Assembly (NCBI GenBank): GCA_030427065.1
Contig: JAUHWU010000008.1
Span: forward strand, 1-51,635
Source: Gammaproteobacteria bacterium
GTDB lineage: Bacteria > Pseudomonadota > Gammaproteobacteria > Pseudomonadales > Pseudohongiellaceae
Length of the DNA: 51,635 nt
Reading direction: 5' to 3'
This document shows, in pieces, positions 11,567 to 13,370 of the stretch. How positions within the stretch are numbered: the first letter of the stretch is position 1; every line of letters starts with the position of its first letter. The notes beneath the pieces are model-generated. The model ran no database searches. It saw only the letters and a program-made list of their open reading frames with translations, and had not been told where the DNA came from. Made by a program: the position numbers and the translations under genes.

Positions 11567-12172
11567 TCAGTTAGTTGGCCGATACCAGAATTCGGCATGG
11601 CAACCCTGGCAGGAATTGTTAATGGCAGCGCCGGTTTCCATCAGACCAATTAAATCTTTTTCTTCAATGGCCTCAAGGGTGTTTTTCGTAAAAAACTGCA
11701 TTTCCTTGATATAAGCACGCCAGTTCTCTGCATCGGATTCTACCAGCGCCTGAATCTCTTCAGGCCGGTACTGGTAGTCAGGGTAATCCGGATCAATTGG
11801 TTCATTGTCCATCACGCGACCGGGTATCAACAGTGAATTGCCCACTTCTATCAGGCTGATAGCGCTGGCCTGCAAGCGAAACCAGTCCGCATCGGTTTGC
11901 GGGCGGATATCCTCTTCAACACCCTCTGCTGTGACCACATAACGGACCGCCTGCCAAAGCTCCAGAGCACTGGGCTGAATAATGGCATTCATCAGGGTGA
12001 GGACACTGGTGTCGGTGTCGAAATATTCATCAGGAATGGTGTTTTCAACAGGCGTCTGATTATCGGGTTGATTAATATCGGACACCACTGTCAAGGATGT
12101 TTCACAAGGGGGCTGTTCTGCTGAGCAGGCCATAAGCAGCGCTAGTGTGGCAATTGAAATTATGATTTTCAT
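11567..12172 (-). CDS. Type-II (c'/c556-like) cytochrome c lipoprotein
   Basis: A 201-residue lipoprotein with a lipobox at LLMAC (Cys16). The single haem motif CQGCH (Cys188-His192) lies 10 residues from the C-terminus. A C-terminal CxxCH after a long helical stretch is the hallmark of four-helix cytochromes c' and c556. The axial ligand on the other side cannot be assigned securely. It is a periplasmic or membrane-anchored electron carrier or gas sensor. Last gene of a minus-strand group that includes the NYN gene. Confidence 0.8.
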   Translation of the reverse strand: MKIIISIATLALLMACSAEQPPCETSLTVVSDINQPDNQTPVENTIPDEYFDTDTSVLTLMNAIIQPSALELWQAVRYVVTAEGVEEDIRPQTDADWFRLQASAISLIEVGNSLLIPGRVMDNEPIDPDYPDYQYRPEEIQALVESDAENWRAYIKEMQFFTKNTLEAIEEKDLIGLMETGAAINNSCQGCHAEFWYRPTN

Positions 12173-12301: not shown

Positions 12302-12778
12302 TCAAAGCAGCAAGTGTTCAGTAATAGGATGAAACGCCGTGGCAGACTGTTGTAAGGAGGTTGCCGTCAGGGAAGGCACGCCATAAACCTCGGCGCTGAC
12401 ATGACAGTCCTTGATAATTTTATCCAGTAACTGATCAAAATCGCCGTCGCCGGAGAGCAGCACCACGGTGTCGACATCATTCGCGGCATCCAGTACATCA
12501 ATAGTAATGCCTACATCCCAGTCACCTTTTGCAGAACCATCACTGCGCTGGATATAGGGTTTGAGTCTAAGCGTAAAGCCGATATGTTTCAGGGCGCTTT
12601 GAAATTTAAGCTGGCCTTCATCCCCGCGATGGGTGGCATAGGCTTTGGCAACGACAATTTCACCCCGTTGGCTTAACTGTTGCCAAAAGGCACGGTAATT
12701 GAATTGGCGACCATAGGCTTCACGGGTGGTGTAGTAGATGTTCTGGACATCGACGAAGACGGCTATTTTATTTGCGAT
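12302..12778 (-). CDS. NYN (LabA/DUF88) domain nuclease-like protein, apparent AUC start
   Basis: An open frame of 158 codons not found by ATG/GTG/TTG scanning. It begins KIAVFVDVQNIYYT and has the full PIN-like NYN acidic set: Asp10, Asp86 and Asp88 in KGDWDVG, and Asp111/113/115 in LLSGDGDFD. This family includes RNases and LabA-type proteins. In frame, a TGA lies five codons before codon 1. No ATG, GTG or TTG occurs before codon 105, and the first CTG is at codon 63, beyond the conserved start. GAGGGAG (12786-12792) sits 7 nt from an ATC codon, so AUC is the best start. AUA at codon 5 is the alternative. Confidence 0.85.
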   Translation of the reverse strand: MANKIAVFVDVQNIYYTTREAYGRQFNYRAFWQQLSQRGEIVVAKAYATHRGDEGQLKFQSALKHIGFTLRLKPYIQRSDGSAKGDWDVGITIDVLDAANDVDTVVLLSGDGDFDQLLDKIIKDCHVSAEVYGVPSLTATSLQQSATAFHPITEHLLL

Positions 12779-12818
12779 AAGGTATCTCCCTCAAGATCAT
12801 CAGTTTTATTGGCAAGTA

Positions 12819-13370
12819 TCAATCGGGATTCACGGAGTACTCTATGGTGAAACTGTAATCATCCTCCACGATAGTGTTCTCAAGCTCGGGATAGGGGGAT
12901 GCTTCAAGTAATCTGAAAGTATAATCCTGCGTTTTGATGTTCGCGCCGGGTAGATCCCCGTTTCCTTCCAATGTCAGTTCCATCAGGGTAATGGCATTGG
13001 TGTTGTGGTCCTGCAACTGCAGTCCAATAGTGACCTCACCGGCTACTATGCATTGGGCGTCTTGCGGGCATCGTGAATCCTGGATATCCAGCAGGGTCAG
13101 GGTGTCGTTGGTAAATAATATTGCAGGGGCTGCTGAGGATAATTTCGCGGTTTGGGGGCCCACTGCTTCGATATCAGTCTTGCTGGCGGACATGATGCTG
13201 AATTTTCCTGTCTTGCTGTCCAGGGTGATGGAGACATCTTCATAATACACCGACCCGTTAATGACCAGTAAAGGAACGGTCAGTGTGTTATCACTGGTAG
13301 AAAAAGTAGCCACTTCTGCAACGACGGTTGTGCAACACAGTGTCAGTAAAAGCGCATAAACTGTTTTCAT
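12819..13370 (-). CDS. Exported hypothetical protein
   Basis: 183 residues with a signal peptide (MKTVYALLLTLCCTTVVA). The mature part is beta-rich and has DSRCPQDAQCIVAGEVTIGL, a Cys-containing pattern found in many uncharacterised periplasmic proteins, where the two Cys may form a disulfide. It lies between an SGNH hydrolase upstream (47 bp) and the NYN gene downstream (40 bp), probably one transcript. Function not recognised. Confidence 0.7.
   Translation of the reverse strand: MKTVYALLLTLCCTTVVAEVATFSTSDNTLTVPLLVINGSVYYEDVSITLDSKTGKFSIMSASKTDIEAVGPQTAKLSSAAPAILFTNDTLTLLDIQDSRCPQDAQCIVAGEVTIGLQLQDHNTNAITLMELTLEGNGDLPGANIKTQDYTFRLLEASPYPELENTIVEDDYSFTIEYSVNPD

Follow-up and report, generated by a model that had tools for sequence, protein, structure and literature searches.

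How is a gene translated when no standard start codon lies between the stop codon upstream of its frame and its essential coding sequence? The question is raised by a reading frame in the window, the whole 51,635-nucleotide stretch of DNA that was analysed, for which the original prediction had proposed an NYN nuclease gene initiated at AUC. The frame was compared between the window species (G000), its sister species (G002) and the other members of the set of congeners designated G001 to G005. Judged from the sequences, translation of this gene very probably starts at the AUC at positions 12776-12778. This represents a known mechanism, noncanonical initiation, in a new gene.

The reading frame and its predicted product

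The reading frame is as follows.

12302..12778, minus strand: NYN-domain coding sequence of 158 codons plus TGA, with a proposed ATC start (open frame; dN/dS 0.04 against G002)

The product matched the Pfam NYN profile (PF01936) over residues 4-152 with an E value of 3.6e-39 and a score of 135 bits, against a gathering cut-off of 24.2, and the match spans profile positions 1-144 of 145, which makes it a full-length domain. PDB entry 2QIP matched residues 3-157 (E 3.5e-47); this is the NYN protein VPA0982 of Vibrio parahaemolyticus, deposited as a protein of unknown function. The residues of the PIN-like active site (D10, N13, D86, D88, D94, D111 and D113) were each present in 100% of 104 homologues. 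Both the coordinates of the frame and the claim that it carries all NYN acidic residues were borne out. The product is a 2QIP-like (LabA-type) NYN protein and a putative ribonuclease. Because the gene is present as one copy in the genome of the window species, there is no second copy to compensate for it. Within the genus it was found in four of six genomes, while the near-complete congeners G001 and G003 gave no NYN match; going by the two genomes without it, the gene would be either dispensable in the genus or lost in G001 and G003.

The start region in two species

The following features define the start region.

12776..12778, minus strand: proposed ATC start codon, identical in the sister species G002
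12786..12792, minus strand: Shine-Dalgarno sequence GAGGGAG (AAGGGAG in G002), 7 nt 5′ of the ATC (anti-Shine-Dalgarno duplex computed)
12791..12793, minus strand: in-frame TGA stop codon, five codons 5′ of the ATC (TAA in G002), from the sequence
12464..12466, minus strand: GTG at codon 105, the first standard in-frame start in the window genome, from reading of the frame

The TGA five codons upstream, the absence of ATG, GTG and TTG before codon 105 and the 7-nt spacer between GAGGGAG and ATC were all recovered as first described. In the window species the TGA is followed by GGG AGA TAC CTT and then by ATC GCA AAT AAA ATA GCC, and no ATG, GTG or TTG occurs in the NYN frame from the upstream stop to codon 105. 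No in-frame start further upstream is possible because of the TGA, and a start at the GTG of codon 105 would yield 54 amino acids that do not include Asp10, Asp86, Asp88 or Asp94. The corresponding region of G002 reads TAA GGG AGA TAT CCT ATC GCG AAT AAA ATT GCC. Here the ATC is at the identical place, 7 nt behind AAGGGAG, with no standard start upstream, and the first standard codon is at position 11, past Asp10. A search of close relatives for the same codon had been suggested as a check, and the ATC, the Shine-Dalgarno sequence and the spacing do recur in G002. The computed duplex of the Shine-Dalgarno sequence with the anti-Shine-Dalgarno was about -8.5 kcal/mol in the window species and -8.4 kcal/mol in G002. 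The ATC is the only in-frame near-cognate codon at Shine-Dalgarno distance that the two species have in common (TAC CTT ATC and TAT CCT ATC), and among the relatives a shared near-cognate codon behind the Shine-Dalgarno sequence was found for G000 and G002 only.

Several of these features taken singly are common. In 40 sampled stretches of the window genome, ATH was located 5-8 nt downstream of 22% of the GGAG sites, and the combination of a Shine-Dalgarno sequence with ATH alone is not rare; neither is a long run without internal ATG, GTG or TTG among the homologues. The leaders of G000 and G002 differ at nine of 43 sites, and by our own estimate the chance that GGGAG and ATC would both be untouched given this divergence is roughly 15%. 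Since only two species show the ATC, its conservation as such carries limited statistical weight. The feature that is not due to chance is an intact, selected gene without a standard start in two species. An Rfam search at the locus gave no match, and scans of the locus for promoters and terminators gave chance-level results only.

Constraint on the frame and alternatives to AUC initiation

The G002 and window NYN proteins share 95% amino acid identity, and the coding sequences share 88% nucleotide identity. Over the coding sequence dS was about 0.65 and dN 0.025, which gives a dN/dS of 0.039. The ratio was 0.025 over codons 2-104 and 0.067 over codons 105-158, and codons 2-30 contained nine synonymous and zero nonsynonymous changes. 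Codons 2-104, which precede the window genome's only standard start and could not be expressed from codon 105, are thus constrained at least as much as the remainder. Together with the upstream stops, this constraint indicates that initiation occurs most likely at or very near codon 1, within a short interval. The purifying selection, and the recurrence of the ATC, Shine-Dalgarno sequence and spacing in the assembly of an independent species, support the AUC initiation that had been proposed.

The use of another start codon is improbable, although it fares better than the other alternatives. The candidates are the isoleucine codon 5 (ATA or ATT), which is near-cognate in both species, the GTG at codon 11 of G002 and the GTG at codon 105. 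Codon 5 sits 19 nt from the Shine-Dalgarno sequence. The window species has GTC at codon 11, and initiation at this position in G002 would delete the first strand together with Asp10, which is invariant in the 104 homologues. A start at codon 105 would drop most of the domain, even though the codons before it are conserved no less strongly than those after it.

The region between the NYN gene and its upstream neighbour contains two further frames that bear on how ribosomes might enter the gene.

12768..12815, minus strand: out-of-frame small ORF (TTG...TAA) overlapping the ATC, from codon-by-codon reading of the G002 alignment
12819..13370, minus strand: upstream gene of 183 amino acids without a Pfam or NCBIfam match (frame list; profile search)

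Entry by ribosomal frameshifting is very unlikely, whether it were to start in the small ORF (TTG/ATG ... CGC AAA TAA) or in the upstream gene. The TTG-initiated frame is open over the Shine-Dalgarno sequence and the ATC in both species, but this TTG has no evident Shine-Dalgarno sequence of its own, the ATG of the small ORF is ACG in G002, and its final sense codon differs between the two (AAA against GAA), so that a slippery site is not kept. The codon changes of the small ORF relative to G002 are mostly nonsynonymous, which leaves it unsupported as a coding sequence or frameshift leader. Readthrough from or fusion with the upstream gene was considered and rejected, since the frame is offset, more stops intervene and the two genes are non-adjacent in G004 and G005.

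It is equally hard to regard the NYN gene as a young pseudogene that has lost its start. The standard start is missing and two of the six genus genomes lack the gene, but the low dN/dS at a dS of 0.65 has accumulated since the split from G002 with both lineages lacking a standard start, the acidic residues are all intact, and the frame contains no stops or frameshifts. The constraint on codons 2-104 and the ATC in G002 together form a strong argument against decay and also against sequencing or assembly error, the least credible alternative: a one-base change from ATC to ATG would restore an ordinary gene and the genomes are fragmented drafts (262 contigs for G000), but the misreading that had been named as a possible refutation would need to have happened twice, in assemblies that differ by 12%, the second from a separate species with the same ATC amid different flanking bases.

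Survey of homologues and genomes

In 100 of the 104 homologues a standard start was found in the interval from nine codons upstream to six codons downstream of the ATC position. The remaining four were G000, G002, L022 and L102. L102 is masked with N in the start region, and L022 was rejected as a second startless case because an in-frame GTG is located somewhat further upstream, just past the stop of the previous gene. Only G000 and G002 are therefore truly without a nearby standard start, and the loss is specific to their lineage. In the relatives the NYN start is usually ATG, GTG or TTG one codon after the ATC position. Standard starts in relatives combined with decay of this frame had been named as evidence that would count against the AUC start; the former were found, mostly one codon downstream, whereas no decay was seen.

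A codon-usage scan was applied to 464 kb of the window genome, with 275 coding ORFs above threshold. For seven of these, no standard start lay close to the coding segment; of the seven, just two, the NYN gene and a YcaQ-like gene, showed strong coding signal ahead of the first standard codon. The YcaQ-like ORF in L143 was rejected as a startless gene, since it is one reading frame interrupted by an internal in-frame TAG. This mid-frame TAG (L143:4844-5632 and upstream, on G000 contig C1) marks either a nonsense pseudogene or an error. The same scan over 237 kb of G002 returned none of 151; the sample covers the NYN locus, which the GTG at codon 11 hides from this test. Noncanonical starts that are soon followed by an internal standard codon escape the scan, which therefore sets no rate for them.

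Upstream context and possible origin of the proposed start

The stop of the upstream gene is 40 nt before the ATC, and in G002 the tail of this gene is kept as far as the contig reaches. Termination-reinitiation coupling reportedly requires overlaps or very short gaps (PMC10666635), so that the 40-nt gap makes coupling to the upstream gene improbable here. The upstream gene occurs in only some congeners. In G005 a transglutaminase-like gene (identified by eye) lies directly before the NYN gene, with a GDSL-lipase gene ahead of it; in the window species and G002 the NYN gene is instead preceded by the end of the gene at 12819..13370, whose G004 homologue is on a different contig from NYN. These differences in context make an upstream rearrangement in the genus likely. 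On the other side of NYN, the downstream gene (11567-12172) contains a CxxCH motif (cytochrome c-like) and had no Pfam match at the threshold used; its G004 homologue has an internal TAA.

The starts of the congeners read CCT GTG AAA AAA ATA in G005 and TTT GTG AAT AAA ATC in G004, with the GTG at codon 2, one codon downstream of the ATC position. Codon 2 of G002 is GCG, one transition from GTG. On this sequence comparison, loss of the standard start could date from the upstream rearrangement or stem from a point change from GTG to GCG. Before the window species and G002 split, a standard start codon would have changed to GCR, possibly when the NYN gene landed behind the new upstream gene, and initiation would then have shifted one codon upstream, to AUC. 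The ATC itself appears to be the codon used: the initiator tRNA-fMet would decode AUC with a third-position mismatch, aided by a good Shine-Dalgarno sequence at normal spacing. Given the codon, translation from this start is probably weak, with a low yield, and IF3 plausibly discriminates against it. It is possible, but doubtful, that the AUC was kept because it places an RNase-fold protein under IF3 control, such that its synthesis tracks the initiation state in parallel to infC in the same cells.

Annotation restricted to ATG, GTG and TTG would truncate or drop this complete gene, and the case illustrates how complete genes are overlooked by pipelines limited to these codons. It provides a very probable natural AUC start in a gene other than infC, seen in two species and backed by evidence of selection at the level of codons; the close relatives that keep GTG one codon away offer a clean before-and-after pair for the effect of AUC on expression.

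Comparison with known noncanonical starts

The textbook non-AUG gene is infC, from which AUC starts are mainly known already; pcnB of E. coli starts at AUU, and infC, pcnB and sigR are genes against whose starts IF3 discriminates. As in infC, the proposed start of the NYN gene is a near-cognate ATY codon with GGAG 6-7 nt in front of it. The two genes differ in that infC is essential and its product regulates its own synthesis, whereas the NYN gene is missing from some congeners and is not known to be linked to initiation. The NYN gene resembles E. coli pcnB as a non-infC gene of RNA metabolism with an ATY start, its RNase role being predicted. An ATT start of pcnB was looked for in the genus and is seemingly not used; in contrast to E. 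coli, ATG or TTG codons appear upstream of the conserved region.

E. coli infC begins with ATT and its Streptomyces counterpart with ATC, and Streptomyces sigR starts at GTC and is repressed by IF3 (PMC5472188). Like sigR, the NYN gene is a case other than infC in which a strong Shine-Dalgarno sequence precedes a noncanonical start that is conserved. The sigR start, however, is GTC in 32 of 34 species and GTT in two and was shown experimentally (PMC5472188), while that proposed for NYN is ATC, in two species. Reporter measurements of all 64 codons, as cited in a 2025 study (PMC12350097), rank AUC as one of the seven strongest initiation codons in E. coli.

As a positive control for near-cognate starts, infC of the genus was used. 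The arrangement GGAG-6 nt-ATT was found in G000, G002 and G004, and G001 and G003 have a comparable ATT; in G005 (L126) the gene reads GGAG-6 nt-ATC, immediately 3′ of an in-frame TAA. ATC therefore serves as the start of a translated gene inside the genus. Five species thus have ATT at the infC start where G005 has ATC, an ATT/ATC exchange within one genus.
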